A stretch of DNA of 64,000 nucleotides from Labyrinthula sp. Ha (lineage: Eukaryota > Sar > Bigyra > Labyrinthulida > Labyrinthulaceae). Below are positions 3,233 through 24,396 of the stretch, piece after piece (the stretch's first letter is position 1; each line of letters starts with the position of its first letter). The stretch lies in contig JAALGZ010000010.1 of the NCBI GenBank assembly GCA_015227615.1, positions 1,302,001 through 1,366,000 on the forward strand, read 5' to 3'. Position numbers and translations under genes: made by a program. A model generated the notes under the pieces. That model had not been told where the DNA came from and did no database searches. It saw only the letters and a list, made by a program, of their open reading frames with translations.

Positions 3233-6200
3233 ATGAAATATATCACAGAAAAAACGCTAATCAATTGGCAAAGGTAAATTCTTGAACATGTAACCGTTAA
3301 AGCTAAAAAAACAAGAAAAAATAATTTTGAAATGATTAAATTTTAGTGAGGGCAAAAATGTTTTGAAAGTGTTGAAAACAGATGTCAATAAGTCTCGTGA
3401 GGAAACCAGTGAACAAGATATTTCGAAAGTGATGCAAGATGAAGCTTACTTTTCGTTTTGGATGGATTTTTTTGACACGGTAACTGTTAGTGTTGAAGAA
3501 TTAAAAGTTGATGGCTTTTTGAAAGATTTAATGGAAGATGATTCTGTTGATTTGTTTAAGTCAAGTCTCGTACAATCCCTGTGGATTGTTGCATTCAAGT
3601 TTGCAAGGGAGGAGGAAAATAAGGAGCGAATTTTTTCGGTGGTCAAATTAATTAATGAGGCTAATCTCATTGACTATCAAACGGCTGAAAGTTTCCTCCC
3701 TGCGAGCTTTTTGTTTGAGTTTGGTTTGGTTGAAAATGAAGATGCAGATTCTAGTTTACGAGAACATTCACTTCAGACTAGGCGAAATATTATATCCCTT
3801 CATTACACTAATATAATGTATAACCTTATTGAGGAGAACTTAGAGGGTTATAGCAGGGTAGTTTATATTTTTCTGACTCTGAAGACTGTAGTGGATCCGG
3901 CACAACTCGTTGAAATTAAGGATCAGGTGCTGAAACTCGTTGGTTTGTACAAGCTAGATTCAAACACAGTATTTTCTCTCTTGCTGGATGCTCTCACTAT
4001 TGATTTTCCACTTTCAAGATCTGCTATACTCTCATCTTTTACATCGGAGCAACCTGTCTTATTTGACAGTGATAGAATTCTTTTTCCCTTTGGTCAAAAG
4101 TTGCTAATTGATTTAGACTTTGGCTCAACATCAATGGAAACAAATCTTGAAGACCTTCAACAATTTAAGGAAAAGACTTATGCACTCTGTGAAAGAAAAT
4201 TCTATGAGGAACATCTTCACACGTTAGCCGAGTTAACTAGTAAGAACATAGTTCAGGTTGAATCAGTGCTGCCCTTTCTAAACCCGACTGATGAGATGTT
4301 GGTGAAGGATCTGTTACGGAGACAGGAGTACTTGAGTGGAGGAGAAAGCAATAGTATAGATTTTCAAGAATCCAAATTTGAACAAACCACGAGACTTCAG
4401 CGCCAAAAGGCAAGAGTAACAAAGCATAATATTCTGAATGATATATTTGAGAAGACAAACCTGAAGGTAGTTTATATTCAACAGCTATTAAGTCTTGGGG
4501 CATGGAATGAGGCTCAAACCGCAATTGACTTAGTGGATAGAGCCATCAATGCTACGGATGAAAACAAAGTTTCATATCTAGAGGTCAAACAACTGAGCTT
4601 TGCTTTAGGTCAACTGGTCAACCTGAGGATCAAGAGATATTTTACTCCGTTTGAAGGTGATAAGTATTATGAATATCTCATTCGACGCATTGGCAAGCAA
4701 AACTTAGAAACCAGCGATCAATTCTTCAAGAGTAAATCGTTGAAAATTCTATTAAATAAGTTTTTTGAAGAAATTTATCCTGTCCTTATTCGGCTACTGT
4801 TTAGAATAGGTTATAATCTGAAAGCATTCTTGCAGGTTGTCTCTTTACTTGCCTGCGTAGGCCGAAAACAACCTGGACTGCTGTACCAACCTGATTATAA
4901 AGAAAAAGTCTTGTACTTAATAAAAAGATGCTTTTTGCCAGGCCTTTCCGTTGTGGATGCAAAGTTTTTCAAAGGTGATGCTCAAGATTATGACGACTTA
5001 TTTACTGAAGTGCACTACTTTCTATCTAAAATAGTTGGTGAACTTAACTATAAAGAGCGATATGCTATATATGCGTGGGTTGCGGAACAAGGTTTCCGTC
5101 CCGAGCAAAGTATTGTCCTAAATTCAAAGAAAAATGCAAATGTGCAGGACACAAGGCAGAAGCTAAAGAGGCTAGCTAATAGCGATGAAGCAATGAAAAA
5201 GTTAGGGGAAGATCTTAGGCATACGGCCAAAAATGACAGTTTCAACTGTTTTGAAGTGTTGCTAAAGAATGCCATGAGCTATGATAATTTGATCCCCGTT
5301 TTTGCTGAATCCCTCAGGAAAATCAGTCGACTAAGCCACGACGTACTTGGGTTTTCACTTAGCAGGCAGCTGCAAAACTCGTTGAAGGCTCACAATGTTT
5401 CTAATGTGCGAGCTTTGTCTAATTTCGTGTGCTCCCTGGCTAAAGAGTACAGAAATTTTGATCTTTCGCCATTCTTAGATTTAATCATTTCGAACCTCCT
5501 ATATTGTGGCGAAGATCTCGATGGAGATGAGTTCTCTGATGTTATTTTCTTGTTAAAGCAGATTCTTGAGGAATTAGGCGGCAATATTTTTATTTCAGAC
5601 GTAACTGAGTCAATGGCCCAAACCTTGAGCGGTAGACCAATTCTGAAAGAATCAAATAATGAAACAATTAATTACCTAAGAAAGGAAATTGAAGACTATA
5701 ACCGGCGACAAGTAGATGACAAAAAGACATCCTTGGCAAGAAAACTTTCTGTACCTTTGATGCGAGGTGCGAAACCCACCCCCATTATCTTACAACTGTT
5801 CGAGGCGCTAGAGTTTCAGCAGAAACTGTTACTCGAAAGACTTGATAGGTACATGGGTTATTTTAAGGATATTGAGGGTGTTTCTCAAAAGGTAGATATG
5901 TGCAATCAGTGTATTCTTCAACTTGGAGATATTCTTAACCAAGAAATTTACTACGGCTGGATTGAGCAGTATCTCCCTAAGGAGTACTTATACAAAACGT
6001 TAGAATCCAACAATTTAGGACTTAATAGTTTCTTTCTGATATACAGAGCTGTAGCCCGCAAAATTCGATGGAACCGTCTGGAACTTCTCAAGAGAACTAA
6101 AGAAGACACAGTAATGATCGAACCTCCAAATCCAACATTTGCAACCAATAATGGTTTGGAGAATAGTAATTCCTCAACAAAGAAAACCCAAACGGAGCAA

Positions 6201-7967
6201 CCTGCTTCTCAGCAGCCCGGTTTATCCGAGCAAATCATCCAACTTGAGGGTCACTGGGCGTACAACAATACTGAAATGTTACCGCATTTTTTTTCGCCAA
6301 AGGTTTCTTGGGCTAAGGCTCATGTTTCGACTCATTTGATATCACTCTTTTGGAGCCTTAGCGCGATTGATATATATTGTCCACAAGAAAATTATGATGC
6401 ACATAAAAATGTTTTGACTAAAGAACTGAAAAGATTAAGCGAACATGTTGAGCTTATACAAAAATATGTTTCGAAAGATCGAAAAGTTGAAGATCTTGAA
6501 GCTGAGAAACAACACCTAGTCAAAAAGATTGAAACCCTAGAAAAGGAAAGCTCACTTCATGCAGTACATAAGAATTTTGTCCTTATAGACCTGATAAAGC
6601 AACCGCCAAAGTTCCACAGCTTATTTGTATCTACGCAGGGAGAGTCTGATACATCAACAGCCTTCGTTATGAAGGACTTTTTTAAGCTATGTCTACTTCA
6701 GAGGACAAAACTGTCATCACTGGATGCGTTTTATTGCTACCGTTTTCTAACAACACTTGAAAATTTAAAAGTACCAAGACTCTCTCTTGAGTTAGTTGCT
6801 GAAAATATACCACTGCTGTTCTACATTATTTTTCATGGCACTGAGCAGGAGTGCAAGAATGTGTCTTTTTTTCTCAACTTGTTTCTCCAGCATTATTCTT
6901 CAATTGTAGATTCTAAAGGTCGAAAGAAGCTTGATGTAATTTCTGGGCGTTGCACGAGTATATTGGTTGCAGGTCTCACTAGTAAAACGAATCATGTGGT
7001 AAGGTGTAGCATTCTGTTGGGGCTGAGCATTGTAGATCTTTTCCCAACACAGGTTACAGACACATCGAAATTAAAGTTATTAGTGGTTAGTGTTGCAAAA
7101 GAAATTACCAAGCACGGAGGATCAAAGGAACAACTTCTTCTACCGCAGCGATATTTGCTAAAACTTTCTAAGAAGATTTCAACCCAGAGCCAGGGGGCCA
7201 AGAAGAATGATGTTAAAGGTGCTTCTCCTAAGGTATCTACCTCATTGATTGAGAAAGAGACGCAAACCAAAGCAGGTTCACCAGCCAAATTGACCCAAGA
7301 AAACACTGTCTCAAGGAAAAACGGGAACTCTGAATCAGAATATGTTTCCAAGTCTGAAAATTCTGGCCTAAGTAAAAAATCACATTCAAAAAAAAGGGGC
7401 CGAAGTGTAAGTCATGAGCCAGGCGAGATTAGAGGTGACCAAGAAGAAGAAACTGCATCAAACCACAGTAGGGCTGCGCCTCCATTGAAACTCGAACAAG
7501 ATGGAAAAACTCATGTTCATATATCAGAACCCAATTCCAAATATAAGACGGTACGTTCTAGTATGGGTTCAGACGATTCTACAAGAAAGCACGTAAAGGA
7601 CTCTGTACATACAAGCAAGAAAAGGAAGCTGGATTCCAACAAGAATTCAAAAAAAACATCTCGAGCTCCGAAAGGAAAGGAGGGGCGCTCCCAAACTGAT
7701 GCGGCATCGACTGTAGAAGGAAATAGCCATTATTCTAATAGCATGATGCATCTCCCCCCTCCTAGTGAGCCCCTTCCCATTCAGAGAAGAAACGCTCGTA
7801 ATTACGGTACTGGGCAGAGAAGAGAAACACAAAGTCAGAGGGCGAACACTGGTGACAACAGAAACAGGGGAAACAATAGGCGCCAAAATTCAACACAAAA
7901 TCAGCGACAACAGTACACGAGATATACTCATGGTAGAGGAGGCAGAAACAATAAGAACCGGTCCTAG
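3233..7967 (+). CDS. THO2/THOC2: THO complex subunit 2, two exons (3233-3273, 3347-7967)
   Basis: Scaffold subunit of THO/TREX, which couples transcription to mRNP packaging and nuclear export. The long exon shows family signatures: ARKLSVPLMRGAKPTPI and FFSPKVSWAKAHVSTHLISLFWSLSAIDIY (THO2 middle region), and FFKLCLLQRTKLSSLDAFYCYRFLTTL (conserved Tho2 C-terminal domain block). A strongly basic, low-complexity RG/RN-rich tail follows (last ~250 residues), fitting nucleic-acid binding. The long exon has no good start: its first in-frame ATG is at 3432. An upstream exon, ATG at 3233 to 3273, followed by a 73-bp GT-AG intron (3274-3346), restores an N-terminus reading ...LINWQSEGK..., which resembles the metazoan THOC2 start (..IKNWEKSGR..). 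The spliced product would be 1553 residues, close to known THO2 lengths. Splicing is inferred; the rest is seen directly. Confidence 0.9.
3274..3346 (+). other. Spliceosomal intron in THO2 (inferred)
   Basis: The donor reads AAG|GTAAAT and the acceptor ATTTTAG. Removing the 73 bases joins an ATG-started 13-codon exon in phase (split Ser codon AG|T) to the THO2 long exon. Without it the long exon lacks an in-frame ATG for its first ~30 codons. The in-frame stop TGA at 3333-3335 lies inside the intron, so unspliced RNA cannot encode the full protein from the upstream ATG. Confidence 0.75.
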
Positions 7968-8348: not shown

Positions 8349-8888
8349 TTAAAACGTTCTTACTTTTTTCAACTGTTTCAGATGGTGAGAACCTACTCTG
8401 TTGTTTAAACCCCGAACTATTACATATAGCTTACTTGGAAGGTAATGTATTAGGCTGCTAAGTATGAAGTTAATTTCGTGGTTTTTCAAGAAGGTAACAA
8501 AAATGTTTAAGGTTCGGATTCTTGTGCAACAATTCAGTAACCTAAAAAACCCTTGGATTAAGCCTGACCCAAATCCATTGAAATCAAAGTGAAGTGTTTC
8601 TAACGAGTTGAACAAATTATGATTTGCAGTTTGCAGAAAGAATGAAACAATAGATCCTGGGTCAAAATTTCCGCTTCTTATATCAAGTTTTTGTATCTGC
8701 AGAATGTTCGCCTCTGTAAAAAGCCTTCCTATTTTGTGCAAGGATATAGTACTATGGGATTGATATAAACATAGCGCACTTCTCGTGGTGTTTTTCTTTG
8801 GAGAAGCTTCAAGTCGAATACCTTGGTTTTCCAAATATATAAAACATGAAGGAGGAATTATGTTAAAAAGTTCTGCTGATATTGAACT
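8349..8888 (-). pseudogene. 3' half of a host gene split by a retrotransposon
   Basis: From the retrotransposon edge at 8888 the minus strand stays open to the stop at 8349, giving ~178 residues with no ATG near their start. The second part has a leucine/isoleucine-rich alternation (IQKLDIRSG, SLETLHFDF, RIRTLNIFV) that suggests leucine-rich-repeat-like units. No named family is recognised. The 5' half lies at 15945-16293, on the far side of the element. Counting one copy of the 4-bp target repeat, both halves are in the same frame and would make a gene of 295 codons including the stop. As it stands the gene is interrupted. Confidence 0.75.
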
Positions 8889-9122
8889 TATTGAGAGTTT
8901 TCCGTCCAGTAAATATACTCTTCTCTAGACGCGGCCGAGTAGCAGTCGTGTAGAGGTAAACGTGAAATATAAAAGTTTGTTCTTCTTTTTGTTACCCTTA
9001 ATAACTTAAAAAGTGTGTGTAATTCTCTAACTACTATGTAAACCAATGACGTGGCATGGTGTAAATGTAAATAACGAAATATAAATAAGAGATATTCAGA
9101 AAAAAGGTAGCAAACCGTAACA
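8889..9122 (-). repeat. 3' LTR of the Ty3/gypsy element
   Basis: A 234-bp direct repeat, nearly identical to 15711-15944. On the element's coding strand it begins TGTTACGG. It is flanked outside by AACT (8885-8888), matching AACT at 15945-15948 beyond the other LTR, i.e. a 4-bp target-site duplication. A short G run (GGGG) lies just inside the LTR on the coding strand and may be the polypurine tract. Confidence 0.93.
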
Positions 9123-9142
9123 TTGCCCCAATATCTCTGAAG

Positions 9143-12100
9143 TTAGAAACCCACTTGGTTCCCTACAGTCAACCAGCCTCTTCTTAGGTTGTTATTTCTT
9201 CCAAATAACTCCCATTTAACAGCATCATTATTGAAAACATTCTCAATTATCTGATAAAGTTCAACTGGTTTTTCTGAATTCCCTCTTCTCACTCCATAGT
9301 AAACTTCTTTACCTATAAATCTTCTTTCTAAAGTATCAGGAAACTGTCCTCTTAAACCAATTAACACTTCTTCAGTACAAGCTCCAGTAACATTTCCAAG
9401 TGTGGATAAAATTCTTCCATCCTCATTCACTTTGACCCAAATGAGTCTACTCAAAAATTTTATTCCATTTTTTGCCATCCATTTAAGTACTAGCTCTCTC
9501 TTCTTAAATACAGTCCAAACAAACCACATATTATTTGGTGGTAATCCATTAACATCCAAGTTTAAAATAGCAGCATCATCCAAAACGTCGTATTCAACTT
9601 TAGGTCCTCTCACAGGATCAGAAGAAAACATCTTAAAAGGAAGGTCCACAATTAAAACATCTGGCTTCTCTTCCTGATTAAAAATGAAATCTTGAACATC
9701 CTTATTGATATATCTCGAACCACGTGGTCTTTTCCAAATATAAAACTCCACATTTAATTCTTGATTAACCGCATGAACCATGTTGATTGTTTTAGACCAC
9801 TTTAACTGATATCCTTTAACGAAGACTTCAACTCCCTCAAATTCATTTTTAACAATAACTTTAAGTTCTTCAAAACCTTCTGAAACATCATGCAAACGTT
9901 TAGAATATTCTTTAATACACCACTTGATCTGTTGTCTAAACTCAGTCAAATCACCATTGTACTCAGGATATTTATCCCACGTACCTTCATCAGCAATCAC
10001 TTGAGAAACTTCAGAATATAACTGCTTCAATCCTTCAATTGAAAATACATCATACACCACAAGTTTCACCTTAAAGCTTTTGCTGTTATTCTTTATGTGT
10101 TGTTCAGCATATCTCCATACATTAAAGAATCTCTTCATACATTTAATTCTGTCATCAAGAGACTTCTTATTTTTTAAATAATATTTTCCAGCTTTTAAAT
10201 TATTTCTTCTCACCACATCTAAATTAACTTTGAGCCCATGCAAATGTTCTAAGCTTTGTCTTCTTAAATACCTTTGAAGGCGATTGTAAATTTGTTGCTT
10301 AGATTTTCCAGGTAACCATTTTTTAAACTCAACAAAGTTTCCCATACCAAACTTAGCAACTAAAACCTTTAAAGTATAAGCTTCAAACAAAGACCAAGAA
10401 TATTGAATCATCAAACCTTCAGCAGTAACTACTATTCTCTGACTCAATAACTTATGCACTAAATCCTCAAAAGTTTCGCGGGCTTGCCCCATCCTAAATA
10501 CACGGCTTAATTCAGATCTATATTTAGCTTCAGGGTACAATAATTTCAAAAACTGCACTAATTCTTTAACAAGAATATTATTTTTATTTTCTTCTAAGTA
10601 TTTTAAAAGTATCAATGGCACATCTTCATACATTATTACTGCTGCTTCCCAAGTATTTCTATCATTGTCAAATCCTCTCCACTTGACACTAACTAAAAAT
10701 TCATTTTCTGTTGTTTTCTTCAAGTCTACAATAGAGTCAACTTCTAGTTTGCCTTTATCTAAAATAAAAACCACAGTAGTGTCTGGAGATGGTAAAAATG
10801 AACTTGGAGCAAATGGCACTAATAAAGATGTATGCCTGATCTTTGTATTTCCCATCAAATCTTTAACTTCAAATAAGTGCTCTGATATTTGCATCGTTAA
10901 TTGATAAGGTCCAGACCATCTAGGACGACTTTTGTCCTTCTGCATATTTCCTAAACCTTTTTCCGACAACCAGACATATTCACCTACATTGAATTGAATG
11001 GGAGTAAGCCTTTTTCCTCTTCTCTTGTTCGCCACATATCTGTATTCAAGTCCTTTTTTATAAGCTGTATCTTGATAGTCTGCTATTTTCTTGGATAATT
11101 TTGCACTTTCCTGTTTCAAAAGATCTAAATCTTTCTCTCCCAGCTTCAAATTACCAGATCCTAATGTTGCAAACTTCACATCTTCACCGTAAATAAGTTC
11201 AAAAGGAGACTTGTTAGGATATCCACGACAAGTAAGTGGGTTAGAGTTCAAGAACCCTTGAACTAAAGTTAAAATACGAGGCCATTGATCCTCTTTCAAT
11301 CCGAACTCAGATACCAATGATCTCAAATTCTTCAAAACTGACTTATTTTGAACTTCAACTGTTCCTGCTGTTTGACTAATATAAGCTGCAGTCATTTTAT
11401 GTAACCCATTGCTTTCTTTCAGAAACCTAGTTACAACTGCATTTACAAAATGGCTGCCTTGATCCGTTACCAAGAAAAACTCATCAGCTAAAATAAAGTG
11501 TGAGTGCCATTTCCAAAGGGCATCCACTACAACTTCAACGTTAGCAGTTTTTGCATAAGTTAATAACGTCAACCTTGTCAAACTATCAATCAAAGTCAAT
11601 ACCCAACCATGGGTATTGATATGTAAAAAGTCCGCATATAAAACTCTGCGAGCTTTATCCCCAAACTCGGTTATATTTAGGGGTCTTCTTACTATTAGAG
11701 ATTTTTCTGGCAGTGACATACACTGCTTTCTAAACCTAGTAATGGTTTTATTTAAAAGCTCTTTATCTTCAGCTTTTATTACATAATTCTTCACTATATA
11801 CTTCCATTCAAACTTTCTTGCCCCATGATTAAAAACTAAATGAGCATGACAAACAGCTACTGGAATTAAACTTCTAGTTAAAAATATTTTTTCATTTTCT
11901 TTTAGAACTTCAGTAAGCGAAGGAATATCTTTCTTCTGATATTTAAATACAAATAAATCATCCATAACTTGCCAATTACTAGCAGGAGGTTTAGCATCAT
12001 GCACTGGATGTCTCATACTAATGTGATAAGAGTCAACGTTTTTCCAGTATTCAGCTTCGTCCCAAGAGGAGTTTATACTAAGTATTTTATTTATTCTATA

Positions 12101-15100
12101 AATATATTTTTCTTCTTCACTTTCCTCAATATAATCAGGGTTCATCCAGCGCGACAAACAGTCGGCTGGAATATTTTTATCCCCATCTAAATGGAAAACC
12201 TTTAATCCTATGCTCATGAAGTCTACACTCCATCTCCCCAAACGACTAGCATAAGCTTTCGTTTTAACTTCTTTAGGTTCAATGATTCCAACCAAGTTGC
12301 GGTGGTCAGTGAATAAGACCTTTTCATGGGAATTGAATAATAAATAGTAAGGGTGTTTTTTCAGGGCCATTACCATCGGGTAAAGTTCCTTAGAAGAAAT
12401 ATGCCAGTTAAACTGGCTACCTCCAAAGCTTCCACTATTAAGAGCAATAACTCTGTATCTTGCTTTAAGAGGGTTTTCAATTTCAACATCGTCAGGAGTT
12501 TGACATAAATATAGACTCCAATATTTGTCACTTGCATCAGCAAAAATATAGATGTTTTCATTTTGGTTATAGTAACCCAAGGAACTAACTAGAGTTTTCT
12601 TCAAAGCTTCTTTGAGTTCAATAAAAGCTGTTTCCATTTCTGAAGTCCACTCTATTAATAAGCGTTTCCTTTCAAGGTTTTTTAGTTTACCAACTAATTT
12701 AAAGTCACCAAGCACCAGTTTTCTTATCCTAGAAAACTCGGGTATAATTCCACACAAAAAATTTGCGGTATACACAAACTGCGCAAGCTCGTGCATATAT
12801 TGAGGTTTGACTCTCTCTAAAAGCTTTGTAGCATAAGTAATATCATAGTTGTATCCTTTACCATTCAAAACTCTTCCACAGAAAGTCGCCTTATTGTCAA
12901 TAAAGCTACATTTTTGGATGTTGATCCTCAAATTACGAGCCTGTATTTGCTTTAAATATTTTTCTAGTATTTTTAATAAACCTTCGAACGTTGGGGACAT
13001 AAGAACAGTGTCGTCTATCCATTGCATGCTGTTTTTAGGCCATAATCCAGCGGGGGACAGCACCTGGTGAATCTGTCGCATGCTAAAGAGAGCGGGGGTG
13101 TTACACCAACCCTGCGGTGCTCCCCGGAAGCTATACGCGACTCCCCAGGGCGTCACAAAGGTAAATAGCCTCCCCGCAGCCTTGTCACAGCGTAGATAGT
13201 CGAAACCAGAAAGTAGATCAAAGGATGAAAAATAATTCATATCCTGGGCTCTGTGTAATTGTAGCTCCAATTTAGGTAGAGTATTAGTAACTTTTTTTGT
13301 AGCATCGTTGAGAGGCCTGAAGTCTACAACCATTCTAAACTTTTTAGGGCCTTTCTTAGGTACTACTAAAGTACTCATGGCCGTTGTAGGATTGGGATTG
13401 ACTTCGATAATTCCGGCATCCAACATCTGTTGGATCCTTTTCAATAAAAAACTCTCCTGCTCATATCCTAAGGGGTGTTGGTTCAAGACCCCAACACTTC
13501 TCCCTTCCTTGAGTTCACACTCAATAGGAGTTAAATTAGAGAGAGAGGTGGGTGATTCTGAATCACCAAATGCTTTGACGTTTCTCTTTAGTAAATTAAG
13601 GAGCTCACTCTTCTTATTAAAATCACCATCAAAATGCTTCAAATTTAAACCTCCAACTTTATCTTCTAAAATATTGGTCAAACGTCTTATATCTTCTTCT
13701 GAACTTATATCTAGGTTTGCCCCTTCATCGATTATTTCGAAATTAATCTCATCATCTTGCTCAGCAAAAATCACTGGATCTTTCTTCATTAATTCCTTTG
13801 GCAAAATAAGTTCATTGATAGTTGTAAATTGAGTTTCTTTCTTATCTAAAGAGTCGTAAAAAATATCTTTTTCATAATAAAAATCCTCAGACAAAGCATC
13901 ATAAAAAACATCATCTTGATTAATGTAAAATACACCTCTAGGTTCTATTGTGGCATCATCAACTTGAATGGTTTTCTCTTCTAACTTCAGAGTTTCTTCC
14001 AGCCAGTTAGCCCAATATTCAAGGGCGTTTCCATTTTGAACCTCTTTAAAACTTTTCTTCTTATTCAGTTTCTGCCTTAGAGACGTTAAGGGATCCAACC
14101 CATGAGATCTTAGTTGATCATTTCCTATAATCAAATCATCCCACTGGGGTACATCCATAAGCATACACTCAACGTTCGTGAAAGTGTAAAAACCACCATC
14201 CAGACGAACAATAACCTTGGCCAAAACACCAAGTTCAAATACCCAATAAATCCTTCCTCCAGCAACTTTTATAGCAAATGGGTTATCAAGAGTGATCGTC
14301 TTCGAACAATATTTTCTGAGACGCAAATTCATAGCACTTTTAAAAGCTCCACTGTCTAAGAGTGCTGTGTATTTTTCTCCACCTTCTTCAAAATACACTT
14401 CAACTTCTGCATCCTCATCTAATTCGCTATAATCATAAACGTGACCAGCAGGGATCAAGTTGGGTTTAAGTACTGTTGTACTTTTTATCATATTCAGTTT
14501 CTTAGGGTTGAAAAGAGTTCTCCTAACAGCTTTCTGACCAGTAAACAGCTCAATATCTGTCGCTGGTTCCAACAGCTGCCCAGAAGGCACAGATTCAGCG
14601 ATATTTTCTTTGCCATTAATAACTTGTTGGCTTACAGGTTTCAAGATGTTACCATCTGATTGACCCACAACTCTGGCAGCTAACTTTTTCGCCGCTCTCT
14701 TTTTCCTTCTTCTCTCCTTATATTTTTCCCGTTTCTGCCTTAATTCTGGCTCCGTTGGGATAGCAGATTTCGGGTTCCCATTTCTTTTAGCAAAGCATTT
14801 AGGTTTTTTATGGCCGTATTCATAACAGTGGGTGCATAAACTGGTAATTAACAACTCAGCTGGCATATCTTGACCCACGTTATTCACAGCTTCAACTTTA
14901 ACCTTAGGTTTTAACTTCTTTGCTTTCGTTTTATTTGATGATTTGAACCTAGATCTTACATGGAGAGGTGGTAAACTATCGAGAACAAAATCTATTAAAG
15001 CAACTCGATTCTTTTGCTTCAACTCTGGTTTAAGCCTCAGGTCTTTTTTTCTGACCCATACATATTCAGGAAGTTTCTCGAAGATAGCTTCAGCAATAAG

Positions 15101-15628
15101 TCCGGGCTTCATTTCAGCCCCTGGTGGCATGATATTCAATAACTCATCCACTTCTTTAAACATAATAACGATTGCTTCTTCTTCAAGAATATCTTCGTTA
15201 AAATAAATATATTTTTTAATTAAATCTTCAGCAGATTTTAAATCTTTTGTTTTCTCCTGTTGAACTTTTTCTTTTAAATACTTAATGATGTCCTGATCTG
15301 TATTGGTCTTTCCTAGAAACTTCAAGTGTTGAAAAGCTTTTCTAGATAGTTTTTGAGCTACAGAAATAAGGCTCTTCTGTTCTCCAGTAAGCCTTTCATA
15401 TTGAAATAGAAAATCTTCTACATCTTCAACATTTAAACTATTTAGCTCGTCCAACTTTACCAAACTAAAATCTTTAAAAGACGTAACTAGTGTCTCCAAT
15501 ACACCCACCATCTGATTAGCCTGCTGTTCAGACACCTCTTTTATTAGGCGAGTTATCTGGGCGTTATTTAAGCTCCTCCCCTCATTATTATCTCCCCTAT
15601 TACTAGGAGATCCAAACAAGGAAGCCAT
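9143..15628 (-). CDS. Gag-Pol polyprotein fused to Myb/SANT-like and MT-A70 methyltransferase domains
   Basis: A single 2161-residue frame. Order, with rough residues: a gag-like region; a CCHC zinc knuckle (~268-281, CTHCYEYGHKKPKC); an aspartic protease (~430, ALLDSGA); reverse transcriptase (~760-960, FDLLSGF, WIDD); RNase H (~1035-1150, FADAS); integrase with zinc-binding and DDE core (~1260-1560); a chromodomain (~1625-1680, VKWRGFDNDRNTWE). Then come a Myb/SANT-like segment (~1745-1800, WSLFEAYTLKVL..WLPGKSKQQIYNRLQRY) and a C-terminal MT-A70 domain (~1985-2160). The last is recognised from KPVELYQIIE, WELFGRNNNLRRGWLTVGNQ and FLSRLIWVKVNEDGRI, which line up with the METTL3-family C-terminus (KPDEIYGMIE, IELFGRPHN..NWITLGNQ). 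Known MT-A70 enzymes methylate adenine N6 in RNA or DNA. Whether this copy is active is not judged here. Confidence 0.92.
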   Translation of the reverse strand: MASLFGSPSNRGDNNEGRSLNNAQITRLIKEVSEQQANQMVGVLETLVTSFKDFSLVKLDELNSLNVEDVEDFLFQYERLTGEQKSLISVAQKLSRKAFQHLKFLGKTNTDQDIIKYLKEKVQQEKTKDLKSAEDLIKKYIYFNEDILEEEAIVIMFKEVDELLNIMPPGAEMKPGLIAEAIFEKLPEYVWVRKKDLRLKPELKQKNRVALIDFVLDSLPPLHVRSRFKSSNKTKAKKLKPKVKVEAVNNVGQDMPAELLITSLCTHCYEYGHKKPKCFAKRNGNPKSAIPTEPELRQKREKYKERRRKKRAAKKLAARVVGQSDGNILKPVSQQVINGKENIAESVPSGQLLEPATDIELFTGQKAVRRTLFNPKKLNMIKSTTVLKPNLIPAGHVYDYSELDEDAEVEVYFEEGGEKYTALLDSGAFKSAMNLRLRKYCSKTITLDNPFAIKVAGGRIYWVFELGVLAKVIVRLDGGFYTFTNVECMLMDVPQWDDLIIGNDQLRSHGLDPLTSLRQKLNKKKSFKEVQNGNALEYWANWLEETLKLEEKTIQVDDATIEPRGVFYINQDDVFYDALSEDFYYEKDIFYDSLDKKETQFTTINELILPKELMKKDPVIFAEQDDEINFEIIDEGANLDISSEEDIRRLTNILEDKVGGLNLKHFDGDFNKKSELLNLLKRNVKAFGDSESPTSLSNLTPIECELKEGRSVGVLNQHPLGYEQESFLLKRIQQMLDAGIIEVNPNPTTAMSTLVVPKKGPKKFRMVVDFRPLNDATKKVTNTLPKLELQLHRAQDMNYFSSFDLLSGFDYLRCDKAAGRLFTFVTPWGVAYSFRGAPQGWCNTPALFSMRQIHQVLSPAGLWPKNSMQWIDDTVLMSPTFEGLLKILEKYLKQIQARNLRINIQKCSFIDNKATFCGRVLNGKGYNYDITYATKLLERVKPQYMHELAQFVYTANFLCGIIPEFSRIRKLVLGDFKLVGKLKNLERKRLLIEWTSEMETAFIELKEALKKTLVSSLGYYNQNENIYIFADASDKYWSLYLCQTPDDVEIENPLKARYRVIALNSGSFGGSQFNWHISSKELYPMVMALKKHPYYLLFNSHEKVLFTDHRNLVGIIEPKEVKTKAYASRLGRWSVDFMSIGLKVFHLDGDKNIPADCLSRWMNPDYIEESEEEKYIYRINKILSINSSWDEAEYWKNVDSYHISMRHPVHDAKPPASNWQVMDDLFVFKYQKKDIPSLTEVLKENEKIFLTRSLIPVAVCHAHLVFNHGARKFEWKYIVKNYVIKAEDKELLNKTITRFRKQCMSLPEKSLIVRRPLNITEFGDKARRVLYADFLHINTHGWVLTLIDSLTRLTLLTYAKTANVEVVVDALWKWHSHFILADEFFLVTDQGSHFVNAVVTRFLKESNGLHKMTAAYISQTAGTVEVQNKSVLKNLRSLVSEFGLKEDQWPRILTLVQGFLNSNPLTCRGYPNKSPFELIYGEDVKFATLGSGNLKLGEKDLDLLKQESAKLSKKIADYQDTAYKKGLEYRYVANKRRGKRLTPIQFNVGEYVWLSEKGLGNMQKDKSRPRWSGPYQLTMQISEHLFEVKDLMGNTKIRHTSLLVPFAPSSFLPSPDTTVVFILDKGKLEVDSIVDLKKTTENEFLVSVKWRGFDNDRNTWEAAVIMYEDVPLILLKYLEENKNNILVKELVQFLKLLYPEAKYRSELSRVFRMGQARETFEDLVHKLLSQRIVVTAEGLMIQYSWSLFEAYTLKVLVAKFGMGNFVEFKKWLPGKSKQQIYNRLQRYLRRQSLEHLHGLKVNLDVVRRNNLKAGKYYLKNKKSLDDRIKCMKRFFNVWRYAEQHIKNNSKSFKVKLVVYDVFSIEGLKQLYSEVSQVIADEGTWDKYPEYNGDLTEFRQQIKWCIKEYSKRLHDVSEGFEELKVIVKNEFEGVEVFVKGYQLKWSKTINMVHAVNQELNVEFYIWKRPRGSRYINKDVQDFIFNQEEKPDVLIVDLPFKMFSSDPVRGPKVEYDVLDDAAILNLDVNGLPPNNMWFVWTVFKKRELVLKWMAKNGIKFLSRLIWVKVNEDGRILSTLGNVTGACTEEVLIGLRGQFPDTLERRFIGKEVYYGVRRGNSEKPVELYQIIENVFNNDAVKWELFGRNNNLRRGWLTVGNQVGF

Positions 15629-15710: not shown

Positions 15711-15944
15711 TATTGAGAGTTTTCCGTCCAGTAAATATACTCTTCTCTAGACGCGGCCGAGTAGCAGTCGTGTAGAGGTAAACGTGAAATATAAAAGTTT
15801 GTTCTTCTTTTTGTTACCCTTAATAACTTAATAAGTGTGTGTAATTCTCTAACTACTATGTAAACCAATGACGTGGCATGGTGTAAATGTAAATAACGAA
15901 ATATAAATAAGAGATATTCATAAAAAAGGTAGCAAACCGTAACA
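15711..15944 (-). repeat. 5' LTR of the Ty3/gypsy element
   Basis: A 234-bp direct repeat of 8889-9122, oriented with the coding strand (minus), so this is the upstream, promoter-bearing copy. The polyprotein frame starts ~80 bp downstream of its inner edge. It is flanked outside by AACT at 15945-15948. Confidence 0.93.
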
Positions 15945-16293
15945 AACTCAAACGCAATATTATAGAAATCTGCATTCGTTTTTTCTGAAGCTGCTCAATA
16001 AATAACCCAAGAAACTCTCTGTTTGTCATACGCTCAAATGTTATTTCCTGAATGGATTTACATGCCTGGATTATCAGCACTATTTCTTTTGCTAATAATG
16101 CTTTGTTATGACTTTTCTGGATTTGTATTGTCATGAAATGTGTTCTCTCAGAAACAACTTTTTGAGAGAACGCCCAAAGTTCATGTAGAACCTTTTCGAA
16201 CGTGTACTCCGAGGTTATATCTATTTTTATTTCTTCCAAAGTATTTATTGAGCCATAATATGATATTATTGAGTTTCCTGTTTCTGTACTCAT
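15945..16293 (-). pseudogene. 5' half of the host gene split by the retrotransposon
   Basis: ATG at 16293 opens a frame of 116 codons that runs unbroken into the retrotransposon LTR. The residues (MSTETGNSIISYYGS...) include helices rich in Lys, Ile and Leu, but no named domain is recognised. The matching 3' half is at 8349-8888, and the two frames are in register when one AACT target copy is counted, which supports a single ancestral gene. In this allele the product would end inside the LTR. The family is unknown, possibly leucine-rich-repeat-like from the downstream half. Confidence 0.75.
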
Positions 16294-19223
16294 CTTATTC
16301 GCACCAAACCTATATTGTTCAAGAGAGACTGTCTGTTTTGTTTATTGTACTTCCTGGTTTTGGGCATATTTAACGTTACGTTACGGAATGATATTGGATC
16401 TCCAAATTTATATCCAAAGGGAGATAAAGTGAAAGCAGGTTGAGTCATCTTGTTTCTCTTTAACTAACTATACGAGGATTAATAAACCTATTTTTTATCG
16501 CTAATAGTAGTTTATAACTGTTTTCTTTTATGAGAGCCATATTATTATTAGTTTATAGCCTTTGTCATTCTGCAGTTTCTCCCTGTAACATGAAGTGGCA
16601 GTTTCAAGTCCATCCGACATGAGATTTTTCTAGGCCACTAAGAGTATCTAGCTCTGTGTAGAAAATATATGAGCATAGCCCTATTCAAAAATGTTGCTGG
16701 GTTTTTAATTCTTAAAATTATAAAATTATAGAGCACTTCGATTCCTAACTCTAGGTCTACGGATTAATTTATAACTTAGAAGCAAAATTCTCGTGGTAAT
16801 TTTTTATTGGTAATTATTAGAATTTATAAAATTATTTTAACTGATTGCTGCAAATTATTATTTATCACTACAATAATGAGCCAAATGGCTCTGTATGAAA
16901 TAATCCAAGAAGATCTTTCATTGTTGTGCCCCATGAAAACCTCCAAGCACTGTGTCATATAGACCAACTGGATTCAATTCTCCAGCTATTTCTGTGCTTC
17001 ATGGGCACTCTTAGGAGCTCTTAATTCTCTATAAAATGTCTTCCGTGTTCTCTAGTGGTTCTAATCATGGCCATTTAGCCCTATTTTGTGTTGATGATCA
17101 GGTAATAGCAAGAATGAATTCTGGTTCATTTCATTGAAAGTAAGACCCGATGTTTATTATTGGTAATGAAAGTTGAAACAAATTTGAGTTGACTATAGGC
17201 AACTTTGATCAAATTAAAATTCTTGCTGCTGCATGTTGCTCACCAGAGCTTAAATATGTTGTTAGTTTCAGCATTCCCTATTGTATGAGTTAATACTTAC
17301 TTGCTCAATGTATGTGCGCAGTTTTCAATACATATAATAACCCTTTCAGCTTTTTTCAGTTTTCATGACAAAAATGGATTTCTAAATGAGAAGGTTTGCT
17401 CCAAAACTTGCGGCAGATCAAGAATATTTTTTTTTCTCAAAGAATCTGTACAGACTTAAGAAACATATGCCCAGTTCTTGAAAGGGCACACAGATTTTCT
17501 ACCAGAGAATTCGGATGAAACAAGTATCGGTTCAATAATAACATTATAAGCAGTTACTTCTTCATTTTTATTAGCACTCTTAAGGAATGATAAAAGATAC
17601 AATGAAACCAGCTTCGAGATTTTTTCAGTGATGAATAAGCGATGAAAGAATAGATTTCAGGTGAAAGCTCTTCATTTGCAAGGACTCTCTGACTCTGAAT
17701 TATGAAAACATTTTTTATTAACTACCCAGTTTTCTATAATAGTGTACTCTCTGAAAAGCATTATCTTTTTTTCTACTGAACATTTGGAAGTTATATTGAG
17801 TTGCATTACCGATTCGGGAACCAGGATGAAGCTAGCTTCATTTTACATTTCACATTTCGATTTTTTTTAACTTTTGGTGATTTTTCTCATTTTATTTTAG
17901 GATATATCAAAAGAAATTCTTAGGTCTACATTTCATAGCTCAGTCTGTTTAGAATTCAATTAGCTATTGTATCAAGAAATGAATTGGTTGTGCTAATTAG
18001 AACTAAGTAATTTGGATATAGTTTTAAGATTGCTTGACGTAATAAGTTCTGTTGTCCTATCTCGAAACTCTTTCCAGGTTCACTCTGATTAACAAGTTTT
18101 CTGTGCTCTTTTCAATGGAAAAAAGCTCCAGCAATAAAATAGAAGTAAAATGAGGTTTAAGCTTTTATATCATCCAGAAATAAACATGAGTCATTAATAT
18201 ATGCTTCAGATTTGAACCTAAATGTGTAAATGGTACACTCCCTCTGATGCTTTTGCGTTATTTCGCCAACTCCTATGCCTAGTGTAAAAATTCAACTTTG
18301 ACCTTAGGGTATTTACAAAAAAATACATAGAACGCAAGGTTAAACTTTTTACTGGCTCTTGTTTCTCTTCTCAACAGTTGCATGCATATTAAAAATTCGT
18401 GTATGAAAAAGTTCAAAGAAAATTAAAGCATTACAATGATTATGGGCCTTTAGCTACGACAGCTCAGCAGACTAAGCATTAGTTACTTAATTTAATCCTA
18501 AATTCTAAGATTAACCTGAACTTAGAGCTCCTTCTGGGGAGAGAGTTAATATCGCTTAGGACTTTTGTGTATAAAGCAAGTAAGAAACAGTGTAGGTAAA
18601 TGAGCTCAGATATTTAGCTAAGAAGAGGCATTCATTCAAGGTTAATCTAAGTATACTCCAACTCAAAATTAAGACAACTTATTGAATTATATTGATTATG
18701 CCCAACCTACAGATCAGGTTCTTGCACAAAAACCTTAAGTTATCACTGACAAAACCAAAGGTAACAAGATATGTGTTCAGCGAAACTATTTTACTTTTCT
18801 GATTTAAATTATTCAAAAGAGTATCTTGCAAAAAAAGAAGGAGAAAAAGAGAAATAGTCATTATGTTTTCTTCCAAAATCTTTTGAGGGTTACATTTGGT
18901 TCCCAAATAAAGTGTTCTACATGCCCATAAATAGATATTGGTATTAAACGCAGTTTATAATATTTAATACAGTAAAGAGATACAGTAAGAATCCATTCAA
19001 ACCTAATATTTCCTTGGAAATAATAATTTCAATGATATTGTGTAATAATTGTGCCATGGAATTATTTTACTTGTGTCATACACCAGGGAATAAATAAGAT
19101 TCTCAGAATATTCCAAGATCAAAGAATTACAAAAAAACAAGCGGAAATGTTTCGTATTTAATTTTGAATCTCTTCTTAAATCATGAAGGAAGGTATGTCT
19201 TTGATATCAGTAAACAAAGTAAA
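16294..19223. other. Intergenic, ~2.9 kb without a recognisable gene
   Basis: AT-rich sequence between the divergent start of the split gene (-) and the first membrane-protein copy (+). Only short open frames without family signatures are present; no tRNA or repeat was recognised. Confidence 0.55.
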
Positions 19224-20648
19224 ATGAAGCCAAAGACCAAAATAGAAAGACAACTTCCTGCAATCAGTGAAGCAGGAAGCTTTTATGGAAACTATTATAA
19301 AACACAAGGATTTGGAAAAAGCCTTGCTAATACATCCTATGAACATGAATCTACGAATCGTATTTTTGATAGACATTCAAAAGCAACTTTTAACCCAATT
19401 GCTTCCTCCCTTCCCTTCACAGGGCTTCAGCAGCCATCTATAGACTTTGAGGATCTAGCTAATTCTAAAAAAGCTAGTAGTGTAATAGAACTAACCTTTC
19501 TAAAACCATTAAAGCCAAAAAGGAGAAAACTGTTTTCTTTGTGCATTATTCTCATTCTTTTTATCGCTGCTGCTGCGGGATTTTTGTCCGTTAAAGAAAA
19601 AGAAAAGAAGGACAAAAAAGAAACAGAAAGTCAAGAAGAAACCTCTACAGCGAGAGAAGAGCTACTGCGAGCTTGCGAAGGTGATGATGCTGAACTTTCA
19701 AGGTTTCAGATTGCAAGAAACATTGACTCTAAACAACAGAGTGCATTGAGAGTTAGGTTAGAAAACATGGACTTGGCTTGTTTTCCTAGTGATCCTTTTC
19801 GCTATGTTGAAAAGCAACTTACTGGTAGTTTAGAACTATTCAACTGTTCAATTGGGGTGGTTGCAGATGGTGTAATGGCAGAAAATGCTTTTGATAATCT
19901 TGGCTTACGAGTAACTGAAAGCACTGTAAAATATTTTGGTAATCAACGCAATGCGAAGATTCCATTTTTCTACGTTGTAGGTTCTGAAATCATTGAGTTA
20001 CCGCAGAATCTTCTTGTAGATAGTCTTTTCTTGGATAGCTTGGTTAATTTTGAGTTCACTGAAGTTAACACTCAGTTTTTTACAAACTCAGAGTTTTCTG
20101 GAATCTCTTTCTATAGTTTTCTAAACGAAGAACATTTAATCCAGCTACAAAATCATCTCGATGAGCTAGATGAGAAAATTAAGTTTGCGGTTCTTGATCA
20201 AGATAATGTTTTAGTATTTTTCAATAACTCGTTTACAAGTTTTCCTGAAAATTTTCTTGGTGCAGATTATTTTGAGTTTAAGAGTGATGTGTTAACTCTA
20301 GTAATTGAGGAAGATGAACTAAGTGAAATAAAAGAAAGTACTTTTGAAAAGCAAGATGAAGTTTCAGTAAGACTATTTGTTGGAAATGAAAAGAATATGA
20401 AAATTCTTCCCACTGCCTTTCAGGTGCTAAACATTACAGAGTTTGATGTTGGAAGAACACAAGTAAGTTTTGGGTTCTATGATTTTTCAGTACATCCAAA
20501 CCTGAAAAGCATATTTCTTCCTCCAAATCTTGTTCCTCAAGATTGTGACGAAGAGGTTGAATTGAGGTTTCAGCATGGAATTTTCCCTGAAGTTAATCTT
20601 GTTAATGTGAACCTTGATTGCAACATAATAATAATTACACCTCGTTAA
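19224..20648 (+). CDS. Single-pass (type II) membrane protein, intact copy of a tandem family
   Basis: 474 residues from the ATG at 19224, the start chosen because the third paralogue also begins MKP at its ATG. Residues 1-103 are a hydrophilic tail containing IELTFLKPLKPKRRK. Residues ~104-122 form one hydrophobic transmembrane helix (SLCIILILFIAAAAGFL). A charged linker follows, then a ~330-residue ectodomain of repeating short strands (ELFNCSIGVVADGVM, ELPQNLL, FTSFPENFL, ILPTAF). These look like leucine-rich-repeat or beta-solenoid units with conserved Cys (CEGDDAELSR; LACFPSDPFRY; NCSIG; QDCDEE). With Lys/Arg before the helix and no signal peptide, the C-terminus is probably extracytoplasmic. 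No named family is recognised. It is followed by two damaged relatives on the same strand. Confidence 0.8.
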   Translation: MKPKTKIERQLPAISEAGSFYGNYYKTQGFGKSLANTSYEHESTNRIFDRHSKATFNPIASSLPFTGLQQPSIDFEDLANSKKASSVIELTFLKPLKPKRRKLFSLCIILILFIAAAAGFLSVKEKEKKDKKETESQEETSTAREELLRACEGDDAELSRFQIARNIDSKQQSALRVRLENMDLACFPSDPFRYVEKQLTGSLELFNCSIGVVADGVMAENAFDNLGLRVTESTVKYFGNQRNAKIPFFYVVGSEIIELPQNLLVDSLFLDSLVNFEFTEVNTQFFTNSEFSGISFYSFLNEEHLIQLQNHLDELDEKIKFAVLDQDNVLVFFNNSFTSFPENFLGADYFEFKSDVLTLVIEEDELSEIKESTFEKQDEVSVRLFVGNEKNMKILPTAFQVLNITEFDVGRTQVSFGFYDFSVHPNLKSIFLPPNLVPQDCDEEVELRFQHGIFPEVNLVNVNLDCNIIIITPR

Positions 20649-21321
20649 GTATTAGAATATTTGGTTCTTTTTAGAAATTATTAAGATATTATAGTACTTT
20701 ACATCTAGACTTGTATTCAGGGTATACTACTCGGTTCAAAGAATACTACCATTTGAGTATAAAGATAAAAGACACTGTGTATATATCAAGGTATGTTTTC
20801 TCTTATTGCATTAGAACAAAAATGTATATAATGAAAACCACTAGAGAAACACAAAGAGCTCTTTAGGCTGTACTTCTACTTTATACATAAGAAATACCGA
20901 AGGCATTCTTAGATTGAAACCAAGCTATCTCTATAGAAGAGTAGATATAAAATGTTTGACTCATATGGCTCAGAAAAAGTTTTTACTCAGGTATTAAGCA
21001 TATGAGGAAAGAGCTATCAAGCCTAAAAAGCTGATCCGTTACTATTGAATTCAATTCCATGAACGAACTCTAAGAAGAAAAAAAAAGGGTAGTAAAATGG
21101 ATCTGTGTTCCTTTGTCTGTTCTGATGAGAAAGACCTTGGAATAAAAGTTCCAATACACAGGGAGAATATCAATACTTTTAGGTTATTGTGAAGCAAGAA
21201 TAATAAATACTTCTGTAATAGTTCTTGGAACACTTTTGTAGTTAACGGATACCAGACCAATAAACGAAATCAAAGTCAACAGTTTTTATTACGCAATCAA
21301 AGAAAAATGTTGATGTAGATT
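20649..21321. other. Spacer between tandem copies 1 and 2
   Basis: About 670 bp of AT-rich sequence with no gene seen; it would hold the 3' end of copy 1 and the promoter of copy 2. A splice-acceptor-like TTTTGTTCAG lies at 21321-21330, at the beginning of the copy 2 frame. Confidence 0.5.
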
Positions 21322-22645
21322 TTGTTCAGAAACACTATCAGAACAAAACAAGTGGATAACTTGAGCCTATCTTATAAAAGAAACACCATAGGAACATTTA
21401 ACCCTATTGGAACTGTACCATTGACTGAATCTCAAGAACTCTCTGTGGGATCAGAAAAGTTTAGTACTTTGGATGAGAAGAATAGTTTGGTCGTTCCAAA
21501 TTTATCCTTGGAACAAAAGAGATTAACGGGAAAAATTATGGCTAGTGTCTCTTTCTCAGGTATGGTTCTTGCATCTTTTATTCTCAGCGTAACCGTGCTC
21601 TTTGCAAAATTTTCTAATCCAGAAAAAGAAGCTGAAGGGAATGTGGTACAAAATGAACAACCAAAAGAAGGGCTTCTTAAAGGCTGTGCAGGTAGTACTG
21701 CTGAAGTTTCCAGATTACAAATTGCACTCAACATAAATGCAAACCAGCATTCTTCTGATACATTTTTCTTAAGAGACTTGGATCAAAGTTCTTTTCCAGT
21801 TGATCATTTTCGTTACACAAGAACTAAAATTTTTAACAAATTTGAGCTCAATAATTGTAGCATTGGGATTTTTGAAGATGGTGTATTTATAGATTCCGGG
21901 TTAGAAGAACTTATATTATTAAGGGTGTGTAATAGTACTGTACATTTTCTTGAAGATCAACAAGGAGTTAATTTTCATGTAAATTTTATAAGTTCAGAAA
22001 TAAAAGTATTTCCAACAAATATAAAATTTCGAATACTTTCCTTCGACGATATAATCAACTTTAGTTTTTCTAAAGAGACAACTAAATTTCTTACAAGAAA
22101 AAAATATTTTCTCTCAATTTTCAAAATTTCTAAATTGATCAGCATTTAATTTCTTTACAAAATAGTCCAAAAAAACTTGATGAAATAATTACATTTCCTA
22201 GTGTTGGATTCTTACGTTCGGCATTTAGATTCAATAATTTTGCAACTATTCCATTTTTTTTTGTTCCGAGTACTTTGAAATTAAGGGTGATGAATTTCTT
22301 GTACTAAGTTTATACTCTGAAGAAAATCTTAAATTAAAAGAAAACATATTTACAGGAGTTAATAGTCTTCCAATAGCATTTTATTTCACGAATGGTGAGA
22401 AAATTTCTTCTTTACCAGTCAAGTTTCAATTAATAAACTTGATCAGATTGACACTCGCAAGAGATAATATTGTAACATTTGGAAACTATAACTTTTCTGT
22501 TCATCCTAATCTTCAGCAAATTTCTCTTTCTCCTGGAATACTACCAGAAACGTTTGAAAATGAAGTACATCTTAGGAAAAACTATAATATATCTGATGAA
22601 GTGTTTATGTATAATCCCATTGAATGCACAACTAAAGAATACTAG
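21322..22645 (+). pseudogene. Second copy of the membrane protein family, degenerate
   Basis: Homologous to the 19.2-kb gene along its length: the FNPI motif in the tail, a transmembrane helix (SFSGMVLASFILSVTVLFA), LKGCAGSTAEVSRLQIA matching LRACEGDDAELSRFQIA, FPVDHFRYT, ELNNCSIGIFEDGVF. The first part (21322-22149) has no good ATG; the first Met is at 21538, inside the transmembrane region. After ~22100 the homology jumps between frames (HLISLQN in another frame near 22140, then SVHPNLQQISLSPG at 22500-22540). At least two frameshifts therefore break the ectodomain. The end matches the family end. An upstream start exon joined at the acceptor-like TTCAG at 21326-21330 is possible, but the later breaks make it a pseudogene either way. 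Confidence 0.8.
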
Positions 22646-22970
22646 TAAATATATACGCTTTGGGTTGTATGAATAATACTTAACTCATAAAGATAAGTGT
22701 TTTTATATAAATAATGCGTATTATATTAATTTTTATTTTACGCCTTTTTTTTACAAGAAAAGTAGTTCTTTTTAACTAGTCTAAGAATTATGTACGGGCT
22801 TTTTTCCATACCAATACAACTCGGGCATAGAACTGTATCTTGGAACACTTTTTGTTTGACCCAAATGATACTATTATAAAACGAAAACAAAGTTCTTTCA
22901 AACAAAATGCATCTTTGATATTTTATAGTTTCGTATTTATTCAAACAAAGTTAGTTTTGATTGAACTAAA

Positions 22971-24396
22971 ATGAAACCTTCAACAGAACAATTTACAGGA
23001 AGATCAATTCCTGCACTTAGTCAACAAGGAAGTTTTACTCGTGATAAATATATAGAAAACTCCCTTGATCATATTGAACTTGAGATTAATCCAGAAAGAG
23101 ATTCTAGACTTACTTTTGATCCACTATTTACACCGCTTCCCATTCCAGCATTTGACGGTGAAGATTTAAAAGTCAAAGACAACAAGCTAAATACGAAAAC
23201 CAGTGATAATATCGAGCTCTCTTTTCTAAAACCAATAAAATTTAAAAAAAGAAGTTTTTCACTAACTCTTTTTTTTTGTTTTATTTTTTATTGTTGGCAA
23301 CATTGGTTTTTTTCTTCTAGTGAATAGTGGAAATGGGGATGTACAAAAAAATACAAACAGTGAAACAGATGGAAAAACAGAAAAAGAACCAGAAGAAAGT
23401 GGAGAAACAGAAACTCCAACTAATGCAATAAATAGTTGTCAAGGTGAAAAAACAGGGTTATCACGATTATTGATCGCAGAAAAACTTAGGGAAAAACAAC
23501 AGACTAATAATACAATAGTCATTCAGAATATTGTACTTGTTTGTTTTCCTAGTAATCCTTTTCGACATTTGTCAAATCCTATATTTTCAACAATAGAAAT
23601 ATTTAATTCCACAATTGGTATATTTGCAGATCGTGTTTTTGCAGAAGATATTTTTCGAGAAAAATCTTTTTTGGTTATTGAGAGTTTTGTTGAAAATTTT
23701 GGCGATCAAAAAGGAACATTCTTTGATAAAGTTCTGTTTTTAGATTCATAAATTCTTTCTCTTCCGCAGAATATTGTTTGTGATAATCTTGTTTTATCTA
23801 GTATGATTAATTTTGAGCTTACGCTGCAGAATACTCTATTTTTTACGCGCTCTGGATTTAATTATCTTCAGCTATTAAATTTCTTGACGGATGAAGATAT
23901 GAATACATTACAAGAACAACTAGATTCTCTTGGAGAAAAAATTAGTATGCAATTTTTGAGCTTTGAAGTTAATTTCATGACAACTTTTCCTGAAAAATTT
24001 TTCAGTAATCAATACTTTGATTTTTTTGGTTTCGAAGGTGGATTAGTAATTAATGAACCAGATTTAGTTGAACTTCCCGGAAATATTTTTCAAAATCAAG
24101 AAGATATAAAATTAAGAGTTTATTTTCGACCTAGTCAAAGATTTCAAGTTCTTCCTATAATTTTTGAAGATTTAGATCTTATTTCTCTTGATATAAGAGA
24201 TTCGCGTATAAACTCATTTGGATCGGTTAATTTTGCTTTTGTATTTAATTTAGAAGAAATATTTCTTCCACCTACTTTGACTCCAATAGATTGTTCTGAT
24301 ATTCAAGATTTTAGATTTGATCATGGTATCTTTTCTAGTGTTACTTTATATAACCAATTTGCTGATATTATACAGTGTCAAATTCATTTGTCTTAG
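22971..24396 (+). pseudogene. Third copy of the membrane protein family, two lesions
   Basis: It starts MKPSTEQFTG at ATG 22971, like copy 1, and ends with LPPTLTPIDCSDIQDFRFDHGIFS, matching copy 1's LPPNLVPQDCDEEVELRFQHGIFP. There are two lesions. One is a single-base type frameshift in the T-rich stretch encoding the transmembrane helix (about 23265-23320), after which the frame continues as LLVNSGNGD. The other is an in-frame TAA at 23749-23751, where copy 1 has Glu in SEIIELPQN. The remaining frame is otherwise open to the stop at 24394-24396. The homopolymer frameshift could be a sequencing error; the TAA is harder to dismiss. Confidence 0.8.

Follow-up and report, generated by a model that had tools for sequence, protein, structure and literature searches.

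Chromodomain Ty3/gypsy retrotransposons of Labyrinthula with p1-like and AMT1-like domains fused behind Pol

Architecture of the window element

The stretch analyzed here, called the window, comprises 64,000 nucleotides of Labyrinthula sp. Ha (GenBank assembly GCA_015227615.1, contig JAALGZ010000010.1, positions 1,302,001 to 1,366,000 of the forward strand). The contig measures 1.4 Mb and the assembly 50.8 Mb in 153 contigs. The window contains a Ty3/gypsy retrotransposon on the minus strand, with Gag-Pol at 9143..15628 in a single open reading frame (ORF) of 2161 amino acids without internal stop, just as a sequence-only reading had described it. Two 234-bp long terminal repeats (LTRs), direct repeats of each other with 2 mismatches, enclose the frame: the 5' LTR at 15711..15944, which begins with TG in element orientation, and the 3' LTR at 8889..9122 (both minus strand). 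The LTRs are flanked by a 4-bp target-site duplication (TSD), AACT, at 8885..8888 and 15945..15948; a gapped self-alignment extending past the TSD gives 98% over 244 positions.

In the order of translation, and all on the minus strand, the frame holds a Gag zinc knuckle (CTHCYEYGHKKPKC, CX2CX4HX4C; 14795..14836), an aspartic protease with the motif LLDSGA (14117..14383; weak Pfam match, E 0.03), reverse transcriptase (RT; RVT_1, 12875..13363; Pfam 2.3e-19, IDD motif in frame), RNase H (RT_RNaseH, 12224..12562; Pfam 4e-14), an integrase core (rve, 11381..11653) and a chromodomain (10622..10744; Pfam Chromo 4.8e-6, 26.8 bits, cut-off 25.1). The integrase core scored 27.3 bits, under the Pfam cut-off of 32.6, with its D-D-E motif present. 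Thus, of the domains named in the sequence-only reading, the zinc knuckle, RT, RNase H and chromodomain were borne out, whereas the integrase and protease are represented by motifs and sub-threshold or weak matches. Among 11 other Pol frames scanned, rve exceeded its cut-off in 5 and Chromo in 7 (under cut-off in L013, L012, L022 and L009; L numbers denote loci). The LTRs, the short TSD and the order RT, RNase H, integrase are those of Ty3/gypsy elements, and the chromodomain C-terminal to the integrase is that of a chromovirus.

Behind the chromodomain, the frame ends in an MT-A70 domain. Its C-terminus matched PF05063 at 2.2e-18 (67.2 bits, cut-off 23.9), with residues 1990-2158 covering profile positions 2-172 of 172. 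Since the match spans nearly the full profile and recurs in other elements, chance resemblance was rejected. With the LTRs present and RT, RNase H, chromodomain and MT-A70 above cut-offs, the assignment as a Ty3/gypsy element with an MT-A70 domain stands. The added C-terminus is larger than the ~170 residues first noted: it measures ~430 amino acids and includes, ahead of the MT-A70 domain, a p1-like module (Myb/SANT fold and p1-specific tail; residues ~1735-1859, 10052..10426, by profile comparison). The AMT1/MTA1-like part follows at residues ~1910-2159 (9152..9901, by sequence comparison), with DLPF at 9635..9646 where alignment places the catalytic DPPW (all minus strand). By Pfam scan, MT-A70 follows the chromodomain towards the C-terminus in the window frame and in 11/11 other Pol frames. 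The p1-like module lies between the two in 12/12 Pol frames, as seen with a profile built partly from those frames. Besides this module, the earlier reading had overlooked the size of the family and the replacement of DPPW by DLPF.

Affinity of the added module

The MT-A70 part was assigned against solved structures, among which no entry is labelled AMT2/5. The window domain matched Tetrahymena MTA1/AMT1 at 2.3e-27 and METTL3 at 1e-12, placing MTA1 ahead by 48 bits, and an element-only profile gave 216 bits for MTA1 vs 140 bits for METTL3, a 76-bit lead. MTA1 ranked first among the solved structures both by sequence and by model. An origin from METTL3 was rejected on these leads, and the label "METTL3-like" in the earlier reading had to be replaced. 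Judged by sequence, the element domain is closest to MTA1/AMT1, a writer of N6-methyladenine (6mA) in DNA. That reading had left it undecided whether RNA or DNA is marked; because of the likeness to MTA1/AMT1, the DNA half is favored over the RNA half.

For the p1-like module, p1 led the next-best protein by more than 7 orders of magnitude when a 15-element profile was used, with alignments extending beyond the Myb core. A generic Myb/SANT domain was rejected on this profile; the window sequence alone hardly separates the two and gave only a weak Pfam match to Myb_DNA-binding (0.0038). The element module therefore appears to be a Myb-like fold with the p1-specific extension that marks p1 (AMTP1), an assignment that is weak for the window copy by itself. 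MTA1 works with a partner, and the MTA1c or AMT1 complex consists of MTA1, MTA9 or AMT6/7, p1 and p2. The window-type elements thus carry homologues of two of its members, MTA1 and p1.

The host encodes stand-alone versions of both. Its AMT1 (L008, contig C91) has DPPW, and 314 residues match MTA1 at 3.3e-73 and METTL3 at 8.1e-36; no p1-like or RT match was found within the surrounding 3.5 kb. The host p1 (L082, contig C1) matched at 7.1e-36 over 194 residues, p1 entries being its sole matches at E 0.01.

Copies in the genome and matches elsewhere

A search of the host genome with PF05063 yielded 354 candidates and one with the window domain 416, of which the best 150 each were scored. Merged, the two lists give at least 214 distinct MT-A70 places. 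At least 149 of these are preceded by a p1-like, RNase H or integrase match; the other 65 have none upstream among the matches listed. Conversely, 115 of the 150 p1-like places listed have MT-A70 at most 2.5 kb downstream, and 71 of the 150 RNase H places listed have MT-A70 within 5 kb, at a distance of 2.5-3.2 kb in 70 of the 71 linked pairs. Given this spacing and the many contigs involved, a one-off fusion or assembly artefact was rejected. The remaining 79 RNase H places lack MT-A70 among the matches listed, which would suggest that about half of the Ty3 copies are without it. This was rejected as well, since seven of eight such places, selected for the length of their frames, carry p1-like and MT-A70 parts outside the matches listed. 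In one distant Ty3 element (L055), no MT-A70 match was found in 5.8 kb, and no chromodomain was seen in its residues by eye, without a Pfam scan.

The host genome thus holds many related elements of the integrase-chromodomain-MT-A70 type, as the sequence-only reading had proposed to look for. Nine more copies of the window subfamily itself, read in pieces, carry MT-A70; they were chosen by domain match and so show presence, not frequency. Of 20 other loci (mostly fetched for long frames), 19 have LTR pairs, with identities of 89.8-100%. Because identity reaches 100% in L017 (443 bp), L024 (295 bp) and L027 (124 bp), some insertions look recent. A number of element copies carry stops.

Two loci are composite. 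L011 has, beside its LTR pair, a 1.4-kb direct repeat (29-1424 / 5151-6546, 86.6% identity), perhaps a fragment of a second element. In L026, a second, different p1-MT-A70 fragment (8489-9901), with the motif of L050 and L051, adjoins a lineage D element; insertions may cluster or nest.

Elsewhere, pattern matches on viral contigs were confirmed in 0 of 38 cases for query A1, 0 of 21 for A6 and 7 of 27 for A7, and on genome contigs in 2 of 75 for A6, both bacteria. The nine confirmed outside loci contain MT-A70, with no RT, integrase or p1-like match.

Lineages and descent

An RT tree resolved five deep groups, each with 95-100% bootstrap, the order among them not being settled by the tree: A (L027, L056), B (L024, L053, L054), C (L049-L052), D (the window element, L020, L023, L025, L028) and E (L009, L012, L013, L017, L018, L021, L022). 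Close copies were left out of this tree and of the MT-A70 tree; L052, whose MT-A70 is broken, was left out of the latter. Groups A, B, D and C (the last without L052) reappeared in the MT-A70 tree at 97-100%. The members of E grouped with L036 and L045, for which RT data are absent, inside them (94/85). Because these two fall among the E sequences, a clade of the seven E members alone was rejected in an approximately unbiased (AU) test (p 0.0004). L049 forms a long branch. Host AMT1 and Tetrahymena MTA1 grouped apart from all elements (89/92), a placement that is not decisive with two references only. Descent of the module is thus largely congruent with that of RT, and the simplest reading would be one old capture followed by joint descent. 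Alternatively, the module may have been captured repeatedly.

Lineage E differs in the position of its protease, which lies between the p1-like module and MT-A70 in L013, L012, L009 and L022, with none seen ahead of RT. It is recognized by RVP in L022 (21.7 bits, cut-off 20.7), weakly in L013 and L009, and by LLDSGA in the alignment; L012 and L018 gave no protease Pfam match. In this position, the protease could cut MT-A70 free as a protein of its own.

Selection and the catalytic site

To gauge constraint, the ratio of nonsynonymous to synonymous divergence (omega) was compared. In 20 distinct same-family pairs with synonymous divergence (dS) above 0.3, MT-A70 omega was 0.04-0.13; these pairs are not mutually independent (21 rows reduce to 20 pairs because L003 and L011 are one place), and pairs with saturated dS yield no omega. 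Five more distant pairs (dS 1.4-2.3) gave 0.18-0.26. RT omega in the same comparison was 0-0.22. Six young pairs of the L018 family, which differ by few changes, reached MT-A70 omega of 0.27-0.97, values that decay after insertion would produce. Within the window subfamily, comparisons with the window copy itself gave 0.08-0.18, one of them with a copy at dS 1.1, and the full set of ten pairs spanned 0.08-0.31; a stop is present in two of the copies compared. These values point to purifying selection on the MT-A70 module.

Catalytic motifs were read at 52 element places, which exclude L001-L004 (the same places as L009-L012) and the host gene L008. DPPW occurs at 33, DPAW at 10 and DPPY at 4 (47/52). 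DPSW, NPPW, DPPG and the DLPF of the window copy occur once each, and L049 has none. The window copy therefore lacks the DPPW of AMT1/MTA1. Of eight further pieces of its subfamily, six have DLPF, one NLPF and one DLNF, so DLPF appears to be shared and old and not one copy's defect. Four sister pieces read DPPY, DPPY, DHPY and DFPY. KP and F-R-N residues are nearly invariant across the element domains, and KP and ELFGRNNN are intact in the window copy; we take these to bind S-adenosylmethionine (SAM). N-[LI]-P-[YF] is the motif of KsgA/Erm-type rRNA adenine methylases, so DLPF is not necessarily inactive. In METTL14 and MTA9, a needed partner has lost the motif.

L049 (C105:221600-227500) has lost DPPW together with part of the SAM-side residues, while its MT-A70 sequence remains recognizable and the p1-like module is kept. 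Note that its RNase H-integrase spacing of 1154-1156 bases is common to 15 RNase H places listed, a comparison of spacing alone.

Proposed function and alternatives

We propose that Ty3/gypsy chromodomain elements long ago acquired relatives of p1 and AMT1, fused behind Pol, and that this module writes 6mA on element DNA, a proposal in which we place about even confidence. The module would travel with the integrase to the insertion site, or be released there, and would work with the host partners AMT6/7 and p2, placing 6mA at ApT sites of the new copy or of the element once integrated. The marked copy would gain the 6mA-marked permissive state of active genes and stay transcribed. In the DLPF-bearing window subfamily and in L049, the chemistry may be altered, or the module may act as a non-catalytic partner or DNA tether. 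In other eukaryotes, AMT1 places 6mA at ApT near the starts of active genes, together with trimethylated H3 lysine 4 (H3K4me3), and p1 and p2 occur only alongside AMT1 (PMC12695648, cited throughout from part of its text). The fusion in the elements suggests that 6mA serves them either to pass as active genes or in the choice of insertion sites; we infer that escape from silencing may be involved. The fuller claim is more tentative, and we doubt it slightly more than we believe it: that a Ty3 lineage encodes a nearly self-sufficient 6mA writer which installs an active-gene mark on new copies, some subfamilies having turned into non-catalytic partners or tethers.

Several points weigh against such marking. 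With the window sequence alone, p1 is barely ahead of other Myb proteins (0.0017 vs 0.0039). The MTA1 partner AMT6/7 was not seen in the elements, and no search for it was made in the host. DPPW is missing from the window subfamily and from L049; since the former is nevertheless under constraint, methylation may not be the essential function. Transposable elements (TEs) are not enriched in 6mA in the AMT1 species studied so far, and few transcripts change on loss of AMT1 (PMC12695648). The preferred SATS context in 19 related elements has observed/expected ratios of 0.60 in LTRs and 1.33 in bodies, compared with 1.08 in host coding sequence and 0.91 in the rest of the window. The pattern is suggestive and agrees with marks being placed on bodies, although coding sequence or codon use and shared descent confound it.

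The constrained DLPF-type subfamily, and L049 with MT-A70 sequence kept after motif loss, speak at least in part for a targeting tether, in which p1 would bind DNA while MT-A70 docks onto the 6mA complex of the host or onto sites of that complex, so that insertion is directed to 6mA-marked chromatin with no need of methylation. The place of the module in a single frame, after integrase and chromodomain, would suit a tether; chromodomains are thought to steer to marked histones. However, a pure tether would need neither the DPPW, DPAW or DPPY kept at most places nor the nearly invariant KP and F-R-N residues, and we regard this explanation as a serious but rather unlikely one. The same copies without DPPW could instead be inactive partners, and two subunits of one complex are carried together, as would be expected if the element p1-AMT1 chain joined and disturbed the host AMT1 complex and did not mark element DNA. 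Such interference is improbable, since most sampled places retain the motif and since studied species show 6mA linked with active genes rather than with the silencing of TEs (PMC12695648).

Deposition of N6-methyladenosine (m6A) on element RNA, affecting translation, packaging or stability, would agree poorly with a sequence much closer to MTA1 and with a fused module resembling the DNA-binding subunit of a DNA complex; we consider it very improbable. Finally, the young L018-family pairs and the copies with stops would be in keeping with a passenger domain carried by chance and without present use. The low omega over deeper same-family pairs, the absence of values near 1 across families, the five lineages and the invariant active-site residues leave this idea almost no credit.

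Relation to known elements

If a 6mA-writing module of this kind is real, the transposon would write its own license to be expressed. The elements can be filed as an extension of a known class, retrotransposons that have captured a DNA methyltransferase. Eukaryotic-type cytosine DNA methyltransferases, proposed to act on new copies, occur in retroelements of at least two classes (de Mendoza et al. 2018, PMC5890265, cited from part of its text). These are likewise retroelements with a captured eukaryotic-type DNA methyltransferase, but their cytosine enzymes are unrelated to MT-A70; the terms MT-A70, 6mA and chromodomain do not occur in the main text of that paper. It also mentions DIRS elements with a Dam-like adenine methyltransferase, which resemble the window elements as retroelements with an adenine methyltransferase. 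Chromoviruses share with the window elements the LTRs, the order RT-RNase H-integrase and the chromodomain behind integrase, whereas the MT-A70 elements add ~430 residues (p1-like and AMT1-like), with the lineage E protease between those parts. The DIRS enzyme, in turn, is of the bacterial Dam type, in another element class; it is not an AMT1, and DIRS elements are not known to carry p1.

Ichthyosporean p1 is joined to a PHD finger (PMC12695648). There, too, p1 is joined to a histone-mark reader, but in a host gene with a PHD finger instead of a transposon Pol with a chromodomain. In the available parts of PMC12695648, PMC13297926 and PMC11258239, Ty3 elements with MT-A70 are not mentioned; this coverage of the literature is narrow, and an earlier report is possible. 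Since the last eukaryotic common ancestor, MT-A70 families are described as having changed relatively little (PMC12695648). This one genome holds MT-A70 at the more than two hundred places counted above, most of them element-linked, and natural variants of the active site occur among them. Should 6mA aid expression or direct insertion, the DPPW, DLPF and motif-less families form a ready experiment, and the natural p1-AMT1 fusion is on offer for structural work. To our knowledge, and with thin coverage of the literature, this would be the first transposon known to carry a fusion of two subunits belonging to the same chromatin complex.

Other features

The host genome also contains two cytosine-C5 methyltransferase matches, at C77:362853-363845 and C121:1129060-1130208, in frames of 340 and 428 amino acids. 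In the window, three consecutive ORFs at 19164-24396 have blocks in common and look like diverged tandem copies: NCSIG occurs in ORFs 1 and 2, and an IFLPP...DC...F-HGIF block in ORFs 1 and 3; the first ORF has no Pfam match. A 377-residue protein without Pfam match at 33452-34585 (minus strand) may resemble oomycete bZIP/START-like proteins. Neighboring genes in the window encode THO2, an HSA-SNF2 ATPase, a trehalose phosphatase, a class-3 lipase, an amino-acid transporter and a sulfotransferase.

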